Shown here piece after piece: positions 2,216-60,368 of a stretch of DNA of 64,000 bases. The DNA is taken from contig CP060755.1 of assembly GCA_023205875.1 (NCBI GenBank), forward strand, positions 744,001 to 808,000. The letters are read 5' to 3'. The position numbers and the translations under genes are program-made. The notes under the pieces were generated by a model. That model worked only from the letters and a program-made list of their open reading frames with translations. It was not told the origin of the DNA and ran no database searches. Each line of letters opens with the position of its first letter. Within the stretch, counting starts at the first letter, position 1. Source of the DNA: Chloropicon primus (Eukaryota; Chlorophyta; Chloropicophyceae; Chloropicales; Chloropicaceae).

Positions 2216-3643
2216 GCCGAAGAACTTGAATGAACGGCGTCGTCCTCCCCCTCGGAGGTCCAGCCAGTGCTTGGCAAGACAAGGAAAGTCTCCGGCGGGA
2301 GCTTGAGACCTAGTTGCTACACCATCGCCCTCCTCCTCCTCCTTGTTCGGTGAGGTTTTTAGGCCAGTCAGCAACAACCTCAGAGGAGGGAGGGGAGCAA
2401 TGCAATGCAGGGAGCAATGACAATGCACAACGCTACGCTACACGACGACCTCTTGTTGACCTCCTCTGAAGCAAGGCCCAAGTGCCCAAGACGGCATCTT
2501 TGACGCCACTCTTCAAGTCACCTTGGGTCCCTTGAGCCGAGGAGCCCCGCGTCCCCGTCGGAGGTTGGCGTTAGTCAAGTTAACCCCTACTTTGGCTTCT
2601 GCTTAAGGAAAAGCTTTCCAGGGAACACGTCTTGAAAAGCAAAGGTCCTTTCTTAAATATCTTGAGTATCATATCAAAATATCCCATTACAAGCGGACGA
2701 AGGGGGGGGGGGACGAAGGGGAAGAAGGATCCTTTCTGTGGAGGAGAAGCATGCCAGGTCACAAGGAGGATCATGACCTCTCGAGAAAGAAAAACCGAAC
2801 GGTCGCCTAAACTCAGTCCAAGCGACATACACGATGTCCCTTTTCCCTCCTCCTTCACATCCATCCTTTTTTGCTTCTTCATTTTCTTCCATCGAACGAT
2901 CCTTCCATCGAAAGATGCGCCTTTGCGTCGTGCAAAGCATGGAACCATCCACGGGGTGTCCTCTTGATGACGAATAAGGTTTGGTCTCTCCTCTCCTCTC
3001 CTCTCCTCTCTCCTCTCGCTCGCTCGGGGTATGTCTTGTTTCTCGTCGCTTTGACGAGATTGATGACGATTGATTGAGAAGAGATTCCCTCGGCGAGAGT
3101 CTGCGAGAGGAGAGGAGAGACAGGATCGTGACGCCGACGAGGGTGGATACCAATACGATTGCTTGGCGTGCTGGATTGATCGCTCGGACGGTGGAGACGA
3201 GAAAGAGAAAGAGGAAGAGGAAGAGGAAGAGGAAGAGGGAGGCATCCCCATAGGGAAGGACGGAACAGGGTGACAAGGCGGAGAAAGGAGGAAAGGCATT
3301 GGAGACAAAGATGGGAACACAAGAGTAATAGTGTGGGTCCCAGGTTTGTGTGCAGGATAGGGAGTCTTTGGGGTCGGAACCTCGAGAAAAGGCTCAAGGG
3401 ACGAGGGGTGAGGAAGGGAAAGGGATATCGTCTATCTTTCCGCATTGAAAGGTAAGGAGAAACGAACTTTTGCGGTTGCTCGGGCGGAACCCGGGTTTCC
3501 TGGAACAATGTTTCTTTCTTCTTCTTTCTTGGAGTCACAAGCCACGTGTTTAAGTTGGTTTGGACGAGGAGGAGGAAGGAAAGCAATGAGAGGCATGGAT
3601 ACTGACACGATTCTTGACTCGCGTTAGGCTTGACGGGGACGCG
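2216..3643. other. gene-poor interval with simple repeats
   Basis: About 1.4 kb between two divergent genes. It contains purine/pyrimidine tracts, including a GA-rich tract near 3196-3240 and a TCTCCTC array near 2990-3020. Open frames crossing it on both strands are low-complexity and mutually overlapping, so none is called. It probably holds promoters and 5' leaders for both flanking genes. Confidence 0.5.
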
Positions 3644-4375
3644 ATGGAGGTGACTCACAGTGCATTTACGATAGCACAGGCGACGGAGACGAAGTCCGAG
3701 GAGGACTGCGAGGACTGGGACAACTGGTCTACGGAGAGGGAGAGCGATTCCGCGACGAGTCACGGTGGAGTGGATGAGAGCCACGAGTCGTTCTCGAACA
3801 CGGTGGACTCGCTTCTGCAAGAATCACTGAATTCTTTCTTGGACGAGGGGCCGATACTCCACCCCATCGAGCACCAGTACTCGGAACTCAAGGGAGGCAA
3901 CTCGAGTTTTTCTAGCAACCCCCAGAGCACGCGGGACTTTGTGGCCGATTGCTTGTCATTAGTCTGCGAGTGCAAAGGGTTCGAGTACTCCATAGTGTGG
4001 GAGATAGACAACAAGTTGGGGCTCTTGACCGCGAAGACTGGTTATTACATCCCGGGGTGCGGAAAGATAAAAACGTTTTACAACAGTTCGATGACCTTGC
4101 GAGCGTTTCCACTCGGGCTGGAGATCCCCGGACGAGTGGCTTACAGCGGTCAAGTGGAGTGGTGCGACCACGTCCACGAGGAAGCCGTATGCAGGTTCCA
4201 CCGCGTGAACGAGGCCAAGATGTACGGGGTACAGACTGTGCTTGGAATACCTATAGCGTGCGGGGTGTTGGAGTTCGGAAGCAGCCAGAAGATCCCCCAG
4301 TGCCCGCAAATCTTGAGGTACATCCACAACGTGTGCAAGCCTTTGTTGTACTGCTTGCAGGACTCGACTTGGTAA
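3644..4375 (+). CDS. bHLH-MYC_N / GAF-like domain protein without a bHLH
   Basis: 243 residues from ATG at 3644 (MEVTHSAFTIAQ); the open frame begins slightly upstream but has no earlier ATG. Residues 1-90 are acidic and serine-rich, apparently disordered. Residues about 95-240 match the N-terminal domain of plant MYC-type bHLH factors. There is a FEYSIVWEID strand, a GLEIPGRVAYSGQVEW block like the plant 'GLPGRA..SG..VW' block, and a GVQTVLGIPIACGVLEFGSS block like 'GIQTIVCIPV..GVVELGS'. In plants this domain binds R2R3-MYB and JAZ partners. No basic helix-loop-helix follows: the protein ends in CLQDSTW shortly after the domain. It may therefore be a stand-alone protein-interaction or GAF-like sensor. 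The family assignment is moderate. Confidence 0.7.
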   Translation: MEVTHSAFTIAQATETKSEEDCEDWDNWSTERESDSATSHGGVDESHESFSNTVDSLLQESLNSFLDEGPILHPIEHQYSELKGGNSSFSSNPQSTRDFVADCLSLVCECKGFEYSIVWEIDNKLGLLTAKTGYYIPGCGKIKTFYNSSMTLRAFPLGLEIPGRVAYSGQVEWCDHVHEEAVCRFHRVNEAKMYGVQTVLGIPIACGVLEFGSSQKIPQCPQILRYIHNVCKPLLYCLQDSTW

Positions 4376-4868
4376 GAAGTGCGCGGAGCTTGAGATTGCC
4401 AAAGGGCAAACGGGTGGGCAGATGGACGAAAAGGAAGGGGGAAGGGACAATGAGGCCTGTATTTTTATTCACCAACCTTCAAAGAAATCTTCTACGAAGC
4501 TTTAAAAAACGATTCTTTTATGTTGTAAAAAAACAAAAACAAAAACAAAACTTTTCTTCGAGGCAACACCCACCACACCCCCGCGCGGCGCCGGCTCGCT
4601 TTCCCTCGCCTCCCCACGCCCCCGCCAAGTGAGGCACCCATATTCGAAAGCCCGCGAGACGTAGCATCGACCAGAGCCTGTTCACTCCTCCCGAGGCCTT
4701 CCCTTTCCCCGCGATCACTTCCCCAACTTCGATTGCCCTTCTTCCAACCCAGGCAGCCCCCCCCCCGGTAGCGGCGCAGACTACAGAACTTTGATCAGAA
4801 TACATGATTTAAAGTCTCGCACACCATGGTGGTCTTGCTTGCTCTGCGTGGCAAACGAATCTCCCTCC
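4376..4868. other. convergent intergenic region
   Basis: 493 bp between the 3' ends of two convergent genes. It contains an A-rich run near 4528-4550 (AAAAACAAAAACAAAAACAAAA), likely 3' UTR sequence. No gene was recognised. Confidence 0.45.
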
Positions 4869-5678
4869 TCACTCTTCCTGCTTGACCTTGACGATGGAAG
4901 GGGCCGTCTTGCTTCGTGTTCTCTTCGACGACGGAGGACGAACTTTGCAGAGCCCGACCTCTTCGAGGTACTCTCTCTTCACAATGCATTGTTCCTTGTC
5001 GCTCAGCATAAGAGATGTGTCCGCAAAGATGATCCTCAACACCTCGTTGTAGTCCGCGATCTCTCTCTTCTTCTCCGGGGACTTGCTGTCGTAACGCAGG
5101 GCCTCCTGCACGGCTTCGGCGTACTCCTCCTCCGTCATCAGGCCGGACTCGAGAGCCTCTCTCAAAACCAAAGCATAGGGAGAAGGAGAACTTGTTGTGT
5201 TGTTGTTGGTGGTGGTGGCGTTGGAATTCTGCTTATTGAGGTTGTCGGCGGTTGATCGATTCAAGTATTCCTTGGCGATGGCATATCTTCCGTATGCAGT
5301 GCGAACAAAGCGGGGGCCATGTGAACAAGCAGACCTGACAGTGGCCCGCATTATCTCATCATCCGTAGAAACAGAACCATCCATACGCCTGAACACATAC
5401 AACTTCTTGGCCTGGATCAGACCAAGGATCTCTTTGATGTGCAAGCTCTCTCCCGCTTCTTGAAGAACGAGATAGACGGCAGTCCGAAGCGTTCTCTTTC
5501 CATTGCGAGTCCTGAAAGGACGTGCGTTGCCTCCCATTATAGTCAACTGCGCTGACGCTGACCCAGGCTGAAAAGACGAACCCGCACCACCACTATCCTC
5601 CTCACTGTCGCTCTCCTCTTCGATGATGGTGGTGGAGCCCGTCAAGAAGCTCTGCACACACTCTCCGTCCATGTCCAT
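4869..5678 (-). CDS. HARE-HTH-like winged-helix protein
   Basis: 269 residues from ATG at 5678 (MDMDGECVQSFL); the frame upstream lacks an ATG. After an acidic stretch (EEESDSEED), residues about 55-135 form a winged-helix-like domain: RTLRTAVYLVLQEAGESLHIKEILGLI, a KKLYVFRRMDGSVS turn, and a FVRTAYGRYAIAKEYL wing. This pattern resembles HARE-HTH or related chromatin winged helices (ASXL, RNA polymerase delta subunits). It is followed by an Asn/Thr-rich linker, a second helical region with SGLMTEEEYAEAVQEAL, and a basic C-terminus with SSKRTRSKTAPS and KVKQEE, which looks nuclear. It is head-to-head with phosphomannose isomerase, with 182 bp between the ATGs. The domain call is tentative and the function is unknown, probably DNA or chromatin binding. 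Confidence 0.6.
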   Translation of the reverse strand: MDMDGECVQSFLTGSTTIIEEESDSEEDSGGAGSSFQPGSASAQLTIMGGNARPFRTRNGKRTLRTAVYLVLQEAGESLHIKEILGLIQAKKLYVFRRMDGSVSTDDEIMRATVRSACSHGPRFVRTAYGRYAIAKEYLNRSTADNLNKQNSNATTTNNNTTSSPSPYALVLREALESGLMTEEEYAEAVQEALRYDSKSPEKKREIADYNEVLRIIFADTSLMLSDKEQCIVKREYLEEVGLCKVRPPSSKRTRSKTAPSIVKVKQEE

Positions 5679-46208: not shown

Positions 46209-47225
46209 TCACTGCATGGACAGGACGAGGACGATTAAAAGTACAACAAGAATGACTGCAATCATGCACATCCTGTTTCTGGCGGACTTCTGGTGGGACG
46301 CGGCCTTGACGAGCTCCGTCCTCGCTTGTGTGGTGTGTCCGTGGGAGGAGACGATGTTCGACTCGATGTCGTTGACCATGTCCCCCTGCTCGTGGACCAG
46401 GACGGCCAAGTCCTGGAAGATTTCCCCCACCTCCGCGATCTGTCCCTGGATTTCTCGAATGCCCTCCTCCCTCTCCGCTATCAGCACGTCGTGGTGGTCT
46501 ATCTGGTTGTCGAGCAAAAGCTGGCTTTCCATCCTTTCCGCCTCGAGGCTGTCTTCTTGGCTCCTTCCCTGGTCCCCCAAGAGGTCCAGGCCCTGATGCC
46601 CGCTGTTCTTTTGCCTTCGCCTCCCGCCCCTTGGGCTGGCCTCGTTCTGAGGCATCGTCGTGGACATCTTCTCGAGGCACACGCGGTACACCTTCTGAAA
46701 CTCCTTCAGCACCTGCTGGAAGTCCTGAATAAGTTTGGGCGACGTGTTCGCCGAGGCCGTGCCCCCGCTCTTCAAGCTCTCCGAGATCTCCTTCGCGAGC
46801 TCCTTGATGTTCTTCCCGAGCGCGTTTATCTTGAGCCTCTGCTCCTGGGTGTCCCTCCTGGTCCCGAGCAGAGCAACCTGCTTCTGGAACTTGGTCACAC
46901 TCGTGGTGAACTGGAACACCTGGCCCTGAAGGCCCTGCTGCCCACCACTGTTGTTCGCAGACCCGGCGCCGACCCTCTCGGTCATCTGGTTGTAGCCTCC
47001 CGGCCTGTTGCTCGCCACGTCCTGAAACACAAAAAACAAACACAAAAACGAAACACCCTCGAGGTGTCAGTGAGACCTTCTTCCCTCACGGCCCACGAAA
47101 CCGAAACCGAAGGCAAGAAAGGCACGACGGACGGACGGAGAGAGGGACGTCAAACCACGCGACATCGTGGCCTTCGTGGCCGGTACCGCACTTGACAAGA
47201 CGCGAGCACTTACGAGAAAACTCAT
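46209..47225 (-). CDS. Qa-SNARE (syntaxin, SYP2/STX7-like)
   Basis: A four-codon first exon (47225-47214, MSFL) is followed by a 192-bp GT-AG intron (CTC|gtaagt to tgtttcag|GAC) and exon 46209-47021, giving 274 residues. MSF at the start matches many endosomal syntaxins (MSFQD), which supports this small exon. An N-terminal Habc bundle covers about 35-130 ([21 protein letters not shown]...[15 protein letters not shown]). The SNARE motif is about 180-240 ([23 protein letters not shown]...[20 protein letters not shown]) with the zero-layer Gln in IFQDL. The C-terminal anchor is [17 protein letters not shown]. It mediates fusion at the prevacuolar or endosomal membrane by analogy with SYP2/Pep12. 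The subgroup is inferred from the Habc and SNARE pattern. Confidence 0.9.
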
Positions 47226-47725
47226 CCTCCCCCTTCCCTTCCTTCCTCCCAAAAGAAAAAAAAACAAAAACAAAAAAAGTAACCTCCTCCTCCTCCTTCT
47301 CCTTCTCCTCGGAGGCAAGTGCAGTGCAGTGCCTATCCTCGAGCCGAGTGAGGTCCTCGTCCGTTACGTTCCTTCCCTCCTCGTCCTCGTCCTCGTCCTC
47401 GTCCTCCTCAACAAGAGAGAGAGAGAGAGACAAGACAAGACCTCTCGCGCTTCTCTTCGCCTTCCCGTCTCCGCTTTCTCTCTCTCTCTCTCCGTCAGCA
47501 GAGCAGACGAGAGGCTGGGAGCCACGAGTGAGAGGCCGGGCTTTCGCGAGGTTGCAGAGGACGAACCCGGAGAGGGGAGCGGAGGGGAGGTGGAGGAGTC
47601 GAAGCATCGCGTCTTGCTCTTTCCGTAGAGGGGTCGCTCGAAGGAAGAGGCGGTCTGGTGAGGATTGGAGGACCCGAAAGGGATTGCGACGAGAAGAGAG
47701 GGAGGAGAGGGAGGAAGAGGGAGGG
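47226..47725. other. divergent promoter interval with simple repeats
   Basis: 500 bp between the head-to-head SNARE and SerRS genes. It holds CTCCTC and TCCTCG arrays (47283-47310, 47376-47408), an AGAGAG tract at 47419-47432 and a CTCTCTC tract at 47475-47492. An open frame runs through it into the SerRS gene but lacks a plausible ATG, so it is treated as leader. Confidence 0.5.
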
Positions 47726-49306
47726 ATGCTTCTGGGGACGAAGACGTTCGGCGCGTTGCGCCTGAGGACGAAGCAGCGCGTTGGATCTGCGCTGTGCTTG
47801 GCGTCCACTCGGAGGAGGGTGGGGCTCGAGGGTCCGGGCTTTGTGGAGAGGAGCGGGCTTCAAATCCACCACGGCAGGAGGTCTTGGCTTGCTGGGTCCC
47901 AAGACCTGCGCTGCAATGCGACGGTGGTGGAGGCCAGTGACGTGAGTTTGGCGTCAGGGAGCGGCGGGAAGAAGGAGTCCGGGGATCAGGCGGCTGTGTG
48001 GAAGGCCCCGCTGGACTTCAAGTTCATTCGGGACAACGTGGAGGAGGTGGAGGCGAACTGCAGGGACAGGAACGCCTCCGCGGACCCGAGGCTGGTGGCG
48101 GAGCTTTACACCAAGTACTTGGAGAGGAACCAGGAGCTCGCGGAGGCCCAGCAGGCCCGCAACGCGAACGCGAAGAAGCTGAAGGGCAAGATGCCCAAGG
48201 AAGAGAGGGACGTTCTCATCAGCGACGGCAAGGGCCTCAAGGAACAGATCGCAGTCCTCGAGCAGGCCGTGGAAGCCGTCCAGATGGAGCTCCAGAGGGA
48301 GGGGCAGAAGGTGCCCAACATGACCCACCCCGAAGTCCCCGTGGGCGGGGAGGAGCAGTCGACCACGCTCGAGACTGTTGGGGACAAGCCAGATTTTGGC
48401 TTCGCGGTGAGGGACCACCTCGAATTGGGCGAGAAACTTGACCTGATCGACTTTGAGTCCGCCGCGGACGTCACGGGGAGCAAATTTTACTATCTTAGGA
48501 ACGAGGCCGCCCTCCTGGAGCTCGCCCTCGTCAATTACAGCATGAGCAAAGCCGTTTCCAGGGGGTTCGTGCCGATGATTACCCCTGACCTCGTGAGGAC
48601 GGAAGTCCTGGAGAAGTGCGGGTTCCAGCCCAGGGCGGAGAACACCCAGAACTACAGCATCGCGGGCTCGGACCTTTGCTTGACCGGAACGGCCGAGATA
48701 CCTCTGGGGGGCTCCGTGATGAACTCCCTTTTGGAAGAGCCCGCGCTGCCGCTCAAGATGGCGGGCTACGGGAGGTGCTTCAGGACAGAGGCAGGGGCAG
48801 CAGGGGCGGCTTCAAAGGGGTTGTACAGAGTTCACCAATTTAGCAAAGTAGAAATGTTCGTTGTCTGCACGCCTGAGCAGAGCGACCAGCTTCACCAGGA
48901 GCTCATAGACATCGAAATAGAGATGTTCAAGGAGCTTGGGCTGCATTTCAAGGTGATGGACATGGCGAGCCACGACCTTGGCGCGCCGGCGTACAGGAAA
49001 TTTGACATAGAAGCGTGGATGCCGGGAATGGAGAGGTACGGGGAGATATCAAGCGCATCGAACTGCACGGATTATCAGGCGAGGAGGTTGAGCATCAGGT
49101 ACCGCCCCACTGCCAAGCCGGGGAAGAAGAAGCCCAAAAACCTCTTTGTGCACACCCTCAACGCCACTGCCTGCGCCGTCCCAAGGATGATCGTTGCGAT
49201 CCTGGAGAACTTTCAGCAGGAAGATGGCTCGGTCCTCATCCCGGAGGCTCTCCAGCCCTACATGGGAGGCATGAAGAAGATGCAGCCAAAGGAGAAGGAC
49301 AAGTAA
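47726..49306 (+). CDS. Seryl-tRNA synthetase, organellar
   Basis: 526 residues from ATG at 47726 ([19 protein letters not shown]). The first ~75 residues form an Arg/Ser-rich organelle transit peptide. The bacterial-type SerRS follows: tRNA-binding coiled coil about 105-205 ([20 protein letters not shown]...[17 protein letters not shown]), a [14 protein letters not shown] hinge, and class II motif 1 around [20 protein letters not shown]. Motif 2 is [26 protein letters not shown] in two parts, and motif 3 has [24 protein letters not shown] with [12 protein letters not shown] at the end. The motif 2 loop reads [10 protein letters not shown] where most enzymes have AGSAGRDTRG, a modest divergence. 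It is intronless. It charges tRNA-Ser in plastid and/or mitochondrion. Confidence 0.93.
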
Positions 49307-58457: not shown

Positions 58458-60368
58458 TTACTTCCACATCTTGGGCTCGGCGATCTTGTTGAACCACTTG
58501 GAGGTGAGCTTGTACTCATTCAAGAGGTTCTTGTTGGCCTTCTTGGCCTCGATGCACTCGGCCCCGAAAAGGAGGTCCGCGATGGTCATGGCCTTGCCCG
58601 CCAGGAACTTGTTGCCCTCCTCGAGCCACTTCTCCAGCTGGGGCAGGATGTCCCCGGTCATCTTCTCCTCGCTGACCTGCTTCCCCTCAGTCAGGTCGTT
58701 GTACCAGTCCAGGGCGCCCCCGACCTTGAGGTCCTCCTCCTCGTTCTGGGGGTAGAGGTTCGAGTTCTCCCTCTTCGTGATGAACTTGAGGACGTTGGTG
58801 CCCTGCCCGGCGACCTCGTCGTGGTACGAAGCGACCGCGTCGCAGGAGGCGTGCTGCCTGCAGCCCTCAGGCATGCTGTCGACGTCCTCGATGCTTTCGA
58901 CCGACTTCTGCAGCTTCATGTTCCTGAAGAGGTACTCGATGCTGTTCTTCACCCCGGCGGAGGCGTCCTTTGAGTACCACACCCTGTACATGTCCTTGTT
59001 GAACAAGGGGTCGTAGATCTGGTGCTTCCTTGGCTGCAGCCTGCCCTTCTTGTCGAGCTCGTTGACGAAAGGCATGAACTTGACGCCCATCATGAAGGGC
59101 TGGAGGACCTCAGGAACCCTCACCCCGTCGGCAGTTTGGTAGTTCTCCAGGAGGCAGCACAGGGCTCTCTCCGTCGCGCTCAGGGTGCTGTTGAGCATGT
59201 GGACGTAGACCTTCTCCTTGTCGATCACGCCCTTTGGAGCCCTCATCCTGACCTCGAGCCTCCTCGACTGGTAGTCCGTGCAGTTGGAGCACGAGACGAG
59301 CTCGCGGAACGCCTGGCTCGCCGGGAAGGAGGCCTCGAGATCGAACTTCTTCGCGGCGGCGTCGTTGAGCTCGCCGGACACTATGTTGACGACGTGGTAC
59401 GGGATCCCCAACGACTGGTAGAAGTCCTCCGCGTTCTTGAGCATCTCCTCCATCGCCTCCCAGCTCTCGTTGCCTTGAGGCGACGTGAGCACGAACTGCT
59501 CGATCTTCTCGAACTGGTGCACCCTGTAGATACCCAGGGTGTCCCTCCCGTGGCTTCCCGCCTCCTTCCTGAAGCAAGACGAGTAGCCGGCGTACTTGAT
59601 CGGGAGCTCCCTCGGCTCGTACCACTTTTGCCTGTGCATGCTCGATATCGTCTGCTCCGAGGTGGCGATGAGGTACTTGTCGTCCCCCTCCCCGGAGACC
59701 TTGTAGAGCTGCTCGTCAAAATCAGAGAGCTGGGCAGTCTCCGCCATGATGTTCTTCCTCATGAAGAAAGGGGTGTGAACCGGGCAGTAACCCCTGAGAG
59801 CCAAGAACTGGAGGCCGTAACTGATCAGAGCCTGGTTCAGCATCACTCCGTAGTTCAGCAGGTAGTACCCCCTGCCGCCAGCAACCGCCTGGCCAGCCTC
59901 GAGGTCCACGATGCCGAGCATGCCGACCAGGTCCACGTGGTTGTACTTTGCGTCCTCCTTCGTTCGGGGGGTGCCGAATGTCCTCACGACCTCGTTGTGC
60001 GCCTCGTCGTTGTTCACGGGGACGGAGTCGTGCACGAGGTTGCCTATCTTCTTCAGGGCCTCGTCGCGCTTGGCCTCCGCGACCTTCACGATGTCTTGCA
60101 GCGCTTCTATGTCCTTCTTCATTGCCTTGGACTGCTCCTGGAGCTCGGAAGCATCCTCCTTGGCCTTCCTCTTCGTAGCGATGCTCTTGTTCAGCTTGTT
60201 GAACTCCTTGCTGATCTGATCCACATCGAACCTCTTCTTCCTCCACTCCTGGTCCAGCTCGATGACGCTGTCCACGAGGGACACATCTTTATACCGCCTC
60301 CTTTGAGACTCGCGAATGAGCTCAGGATTCCCGCCCTTCTCCTCGCGGAACAAGTTGATGTCCAACAT
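58458..60368 (-). CDS. Cytosolic seryl-tRNA synthetase with a C-terminal GST-like domain
   Basis: One uninterrupted 636-residue frame from ATG at 60368 (MLDINLFREEKGGNPELI). Residues 1-115 are the coiled-coil tRNA arm. The class II core has FFMRKNIMAETAQLSDFDE, motif 2 SSCFRKEAGSHGRDTLGIY followed by RVHQFEKIEQF, and motif 3 NSTLSATERALCCLLENYQ with VPEVLQPFM. The core closes near residue 450, where eukaryotic cytosolic SerRS normally ends with a short tail. Instead about 175 residues follow. They carry GST-like signatures: NLYPQNEEEDLKVGGALDWYNDL (the helix-4 pattern of GSTs), LPQLEKWLEEGNKFLAGKAMTIADLLFGA (the conserved 'FLAG..lTIADl' N-capping box), and YKLTSKWFNKIAEP at the end. Such domains tether other aminoacyl-tRNA synthetases and eEF1B into complexes. 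No frame break lies at the join. Confidence 0.92.
   Translation of the reverse strand: MLDINLFREEKGGNPELIRESQRRRYKDVSLVDSVIELDQEWRKKRFDVDQISKEFNKLNKSIATKRKAKEDASELQEQSKAMKKDIEALQDIVKVAEAKRDEALKKIGNLVHDSVPVNNDEAHNEVVRTFGTPRTKEDAKYNHVDLVGMLGIVDLEAGQAVAGGRGYYLLNYGVMLNQALISYGLQFLALRGYCPVHTPFFMRKNIMAETAQLSDFDEQLYKVSGEGDDKYLIATSEQTISSMHRQKWYEPRELPIKYAGYSSCFRKEAGSHGRDTLGIYRVHQFEKIEQFVLTSPQGNESWEAMEEMLKNAEDFYQSLGIPYHVVNIVSGELNDAAAKKFDLEASFPASQAFRELVSCSNCTDYQSRRLEVRMRAPKGVIDKEKVYVHMLNSTLSATERALCCLLENYQTADGVRVPEVLQPFMMGVKFMPFVNELDKKGRLQPRKHQIYDPLFNKDMYRVWYSKDASAGVKNSIEYLFRNMKLQKSVESIEDVDSMPEGCRQHASCDAVASYHDEVAGQGTNVLKFITKRENSNLYPQNEEEDLKVGGALDWYNDLTEGKQVSEEKMTGDILPQLEKWLEEGNKFLAGKAMTIADLLFGAECIEAKKANKNLLNEYKLTSKWFNKIAEPKMWK

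Follow-up and report, generated by a model that had tools for sequence, protein, structure and literature searches.

A GST-like domain predicted at the C-terminus of the cytosolic seryl-tRNA synthetase of Chloropicon primus

Why would a seryl-tRNA synthetase (SerRS) end in a GST-like domain? The question is posed by a 636-residue open frame on the minus strand (58458..60368) of the 64,000-nucleotide stretch of Chloropicon primus DNA analyzed here (the window), which lies on contig C2 of a genome of 17,584,162 bases in 20 contigs. A sequence-only reading of the window had proposed an in-frame fusion of a cytosolic SerRS with such a domain and had pointed out that SerRS is not a usual bearer. 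The latter agrees with AARS Online, whose entries available to us record GST on CysRS, GluRS-E, MetRS and ValRS only. These listed bearers are class I enzymes, whereas SerRS belongs to class II.

One frame with two supported parts

From the SerRS core through the tail, the frame is free of stops and frame breaks, and both parts have Pfam support. The tRNA-binding arm (Seryl_tRNA_N, residues 1-112; 60033..60368, E 4e-25) and the class II catalytic core (tRNA-synt_2b, residues 222-410; 59139..59705) are present, and the protein clusters with plant and algal cytosolic SerRSs. A linker (residues 441-459; 58992..59048) leads into a C-terminal tail of about 177 residues. Its helical half (residues 535-636; 58461..58766) was assigned from the structure model and from a GST_C match at residues 568-631; the tail scores 27.9 bits for GST_C (cut-off 20.7) and 26.1 bits for GST_C_3 (cut-off 21.6). 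None of the GST_N families in Pfam matched the SerRS frame. The thioredoxin-like half (residues ~460-534; 58767..58991) was instead recognized by the structure model, which also sets its boundary, and by fold search. All these features lie on the minus strand. Overall, the tail is predicted with high confidence to adopt a complete GST fold, and its third-position GC resembles that of coding sequence. As judged from the uninterrupted frame, the GST_C match and the predicted fold, the tail is a GST-like domain fused in a single gene to a cytosolic SerRS, as had been proposed. A scan for bacterial-type promoters and terminators gave nothing useful for this eukaryotic gene.

The proposal that the cytosolic rather than the organellar copy bears the domain held up as well. 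About 9 kb away on the same chromosome, a second SerRS (47168..49306, plus strand, open frame as read) has a presequence-like N-terminus typical of an organellar enzyme and carries no GST tail. ARAGORN found no tRNA genes in the window.

Distribution and descent of the tail

The same fusion was found in relatives, where the sequence-only reading had suggested looking. A full-length SerRS search scored 7996 candidates, 6239 of them at E 0.001, and we examined the best 120, own protein included, for C-terminal extensions, defined by length past a core motif or, in 17 rows without the motif, by total length (441-489 aa). Thirteen among these best 120 of 6239 extend at least 197 residues beyond the core. 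Eight of these (P0001-P0006, P0008 and P0009) form one clade (SH-aLRT 99; 100/99 in a second tree), in which the seven further members share 79-87% identity with the window protein in the core and 32-57% in segments of the tail. Twenty-two tail columns are invariant in all eight, and a YDPLF-like stretch of the linker is kept in most of them. Six of the eight full proteins pass the GST_C cut-off, P0003 and P0009 falling below it; GST_C matches all eight tails at E<=1 when they are taken in isolation, the best value being 1.6e-7.

This conservation bears on whether two genes have been read as one, with the tail on a separate transcript or in an unrecognized intron arrangement. Met460 does sit where the GST fold begins, a place at which a separate protein could start, but it is replaced by Thr or Val in 3/8 clade members, while linker and tail are kept in seven relatives with no stop or frame break, which leaves this reading with a close to negligible probability. 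On the same grounds of a kept linker and tail and a variable Met460, we rejected a separate downstream gene.

Outside the clade, GST-like tails were also read in P0034, P0039, P0052 and P0098, bringing their number to 12 among the best 120 SerRSs. P0034 passes the cut-offs for GST_C, GST_C_2 and GST_C_3; taken singly, the other three stay below every GST cut-off, and P0039 has no GST match at E<=0.1. A joint profile of the four matches that of the eight clade tails with a probability of 98.8, and PDB GSTs at 3.6e-11, and P0034 may drive both results. In the SerRS core trees, P0034 (SM000031S11609, a naming style that we take to be that of Spirogloea muscicola) clusters with Closterium and Mesotaenium. 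P0007 and P0068 were rejected as tail bearers, being long only as tandem SerRS models and having no GST match.

On the branch sister to the Chloropicon clade, P0051 (443 aa) ends without a tail; P0056 (632 aa), the thirteenth of the long proteins, is extended at its C-terminus by about 200 residues that match no Pfam family at E<=0.1. Because one sister sequence is tailless and the other bears a different extension, SerRS evidently functions without a GST tail.

Searches with the tail itself were less informative. A protein search of the own genome for tail paralogues returned only the query; a tail-region search found itself alone among 266 candidates, and a tail-query search nothing among 25. 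The last two negatives weigh little, because the full-length search recovered relatives that both had missed. Because SerRSs took up the listing of the VIA search, run with the full-length model, it is uninformative on the tail.

For the descent of the fusion, SerRS core trees were built from 90 of the 120 rows (P0007, P0068 and 28 others being dropped) and then from 38 hand-picked rows. The tail-bearing rows require four changes on the core tree, and their union in one clade is rejected (p-AU 0.0009 in the 38-row tree, the split being already seen in the 90-row tree). A tree of the GST domains themselves comprised the 12 tails and 13 domains from the own genome, with no named reference GST classes and with seven own-genome loci omitted (L031, L034, L035, L039, L040, L061 and L063). 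In it the 12 tails group together with support of 83/91, subject to long-branch and composition warnings, and are separated from the synthetase/eEF1B group in 88% of bootstrap trees, a figure that leaves seven free GSTs uncounted. Both a single old C-terminal fusion that was lost many times and recurrent fusions with similar GSTs would fit these trees.

Could the tail simply be a passenger, an old GST fusion with little or no function that is drifting? Such a history would account for a tail more diverged than the core and for its patchy occurrence, with 12 tails among the best 120 SerRSs and sister sequences without one. It is less easily squared with a frame and 22 columns kept in all eight clade members, with the confidently predicted fold and with the coding-like third positions, and we regard it as quite unlikely.

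GST-like domains on other translation proteins

A six-frame GST_C scan of the genome returned at least 18 matches at E<=10, at least 13 of them over the cut-off; frames were scored exon by exon and the listing is confined to the best candidates, so that the census is a lower bound. Over the cut-off are AlaRS, ProRS, ValRS and GluRS, all with the domain at the N-terminus, SerRS with the domain at the C-terminus, and eEF1B-gamma. The rest of the matches comprise short GST-like frames and a fusion to a potassium channel; the latter (L034; G000:C11:406000-414500, minus strand) is a 1429-aa frame in which three near-identical GST-like repeats precede the C-terminal domain of an inward-rectifier potassium channel. 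Scans with GST_C_3 and GST_C_2 added no further synthetase among the frames read; C7:132114 (698 aa), C3:631721 (464 aa) and C5:34689 (565 aa) lay outside this reading.

These proteins differ in layout. AlaRS (L028; G000:C5:736000-744500, minus strand) has a full N-terminal GST with GST_N and GST_C above the cut-off (GST_C 49.7 bits), its first exon being joined across a GTAAGT...AAATAG intron as read by eye. A stand-alone ProRS (L029; G000:C1:903500-911500, positions 3143-5428) is a 761-aa frame with an N-terminal GST_C of 49.4 bits and a Lys-rich linker. The 1557-aa ValRS frame (L032; G000:C8:153500-163000, minus strand) combines GST_C at the N-terminus with a PH domain (PH_3, E 1.1e-12) at the C-terminus. 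MetRS (L049; G000:C3, minus strand) shows a weak N-terminal half-GST, like the eEF1B-beta-type frames of L064, and an EMAPII-type (tRNA_bind) domain at its C-terminus. The EMAPII-type domain occurs in four shorter frames (L043, L044, L045 and L048) and, with E 2.5e-18, upstream of the GTPase in a 1595-aa eIF5B-like frame (L047; G000:C1, match G000:C1:338821-339120; GTPase motifs identified by eye).

At E<=0.01, no GST family matches the second SerRS or either of two additional ProRS-type frames, the second ValRS, MetRS and CysRS do not appear among the GST_C matches listed, and a long cytosolic-type CysRS frame has no GST match. As read from their N-termini, the second synthetase copies are probably organellar. 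The domains on AlaRS, ProRS, ValRS, GluRS and eEF1B-gamma, together with the weak MetRS match, thus provide a context that favors complex formation.

Multi-synthetase complexes (MSCs) have been described mainly from animals, yeast and parasites. As far as its accessible text goes, the review PMC4394549 mentions neither algae nor plants and considers that GST on ValRS could be confined to Deuterostomia, a limit to which the GST-bearing ValRS of Chloropicon would be an exception. For Arabidopsis, the available part of PMC7564348 assigns a GST domain to GluRS and states that those of CysRS, MetRS and ValRS could not be found. The main text of two Chloropicon genome papers (including PMC12301720), in the portions consulted, never uses the term 'tRNA synthetase', and a review of SerRS interactions (PMC10817482), in the sections open to us, mentions GST for pull-down assays only. 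In the literature searched, in which subscription journals are thinly covered, we found no report of a SerRS-GST, AlaRS-GST or stand-alone ProRS-GST fusion. Within that literature, SerRS-GST appears to be an unreported variant on known synthetase-GST fusions.

A probable docking module

The best matches of the tail, by sequence in the PDB and by structure, are free GSTs (delta, theta, epsilon and alpha). Unlike these, the tail is fused to SerRS and lacks the glutathione-binding E/Q-S pair before the last thioredoxin helix, which is absent from 8/8 clade tails in the alignment, one of its two residues surviving in P0001, P0004 and P0008. Immediately ahead of the model's strand 3, 8/8 have Asp, Glu or Ala rather than Pro, a reading that depends on the alignment, as MAFFT places a conserved Pro from earlier in the chain in the usual cis-Pro column. 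Just after strand 1 there is no Ser or Cys common to all eight, and the Tyr that closes this strand is Phe in 5/8. Hence, even with a complete GST fold, a functional glutathione transferase or peroxidase carried on SerRS seems very improbable, and a catalytic role of the tail is unlikely from these residues. Absence of the E/Q-S pair together with a kept fold and 22 invariant columns is what a docking domain would be expected to show.

In known cases, GST-like domains assemble synthetase or EF1 complexes, according to the accessible parts of PMC4394549 and PMC10813123, the former cautioning that complexes cannot be predicted from sequence alone. The SerRS tail shares with the GST-like domains of MetRS, GluRS, GlnRS, Arc1p and the AIMPs in the MSCs of yeast, Apicomplexa and animals a non-catalytic fold on a cytosolic synthetase, as is characteristic of docking domains of the MSC/eEF1 type, and the T-x-x-D N-cap box: S/T-x-A-D caps helix 5 in 8/8 clade tails, as TIAD at residues 595-598 in the helical half of the window protein. 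In other respects it differs. The synthetase domains of these complexes are N-terminal and that of SerRS C-terminal. Moreover, the SerRS tail is not of the Arc1p_N_like type: the window SerRS has no match to this model at E<=1, and one of the eight clade tails matches at 0.035. Genome-wide, the six Arc1p_N_like matches listed comprise AlaRS and eEF1B-gamma above the cut-off and ValRS, ProRS, GluRS and MetRS below it, making SerRS the one GST_C-bearing synthetase absent among them.

A further difference concerns the contact surface. We take the interface-2 Arg to be the residue before the Trp on helix alpha-7. In the alignment, this position, Lys624 in the helical half of the window protein, is Lys in 7/8 clade members and Asp in 1/8 (P0004); elsewhere in the genome it is Arg on AlaRS, ProRS, ValRS and eEF1B-gamma, Lys on GluRS and Gly on MetRS. 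By contrast, PMC10813123, in the part seen, describes this helix-7 Arg as interface 2 on GluRS, the AIMPs and EF1 beta/gamma, with helices 2 and 3 forming interface 1. Both classical MSC/eEF1 features tested, the Arc1p_N_like type and the alpha-7 Arg, are thus missing from the SerRS tail as far as its sequence tells. Because the Arg is Lys or Asp, we would expect SerRS to make contact through interface 1 or a different face.

The suggestion that the domain recruits SerRS to a synthetase or eEF1 complex consequently stands in part. The GST fold and the cytosolic bearer speak for it; the C-terminal site, the missing Arc1p_N_like match, the Lys or Asp at alpha-7 and a tail more diverged than the core count against it. 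One known synthetase has a GST-like domain outside a classical complex, a likeness in that respect, on a different enzyme and at the opposite chain end. C-terminal extensions of cytosolic SerRS that bind proteins are also on record, namely the basic extension of yeast, which binds Pex21p, and UNE-S of vertebrates, in the portions of the sources available; unlike these, the Chloropicon extension, some 177 residues long, is predicted to fold as a GST-like domain.

SerRS is presumably a homodimer, like others of its family, and canonical GSTs homodimerize. The tail might act inside SerRS without any partner, as an extra self-association face giving a higher oligomer or by steadying tRNA binding, which would also suit a GST type unlike those of the other synthetases of the genome, with which partners need not be common. 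The analogy with GST-like domains on other synthetases, which dock other proteins, argues against this, and we consider it unlikely, though the least unlikely of the alternatives to docking.

Docking is the likeliest function of the tail. We give a probability of roughly 0.55 to a non-catalytic module that tethers cytosolic SerRS to one or more cytosolic partners in the translation machinery. The likeliest assembly would also hold the N-terminally GST-tagged AlaRS, ProRS, ValRS, GluRS and MetRS as well as eEF1B, and the surface in contact would be interface 1, on which canonical GSTs dimerize, or an unclassified one, in place of the Arg-Arg interface 2. Docking, partner and interface, like any effect on the delivery of seryl-tRNA, are what we infer from this comparison. 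More tentatively, and with the odds somewhat against it, Chloropicon may possess a synthetase/eEF1B supercomplex of undescribed composition, with GST on Ser-, Ala-, Pro-, Val-, Glu- and MetRS; SerRS-GST may likewise be an old green-plant trait, retained C-terminally in a few lineages and lost in most.

What the locus brings into view is a picoalga in which five to six cytosolic synthetases carry GST-like domains; among these, Ser, Ala and stand-alone Pro, all class II, are unlisted as bearers. With it, the origin and purpose of synthetase complexes could be tested in a photosynthetic cell that is both small and free-living.
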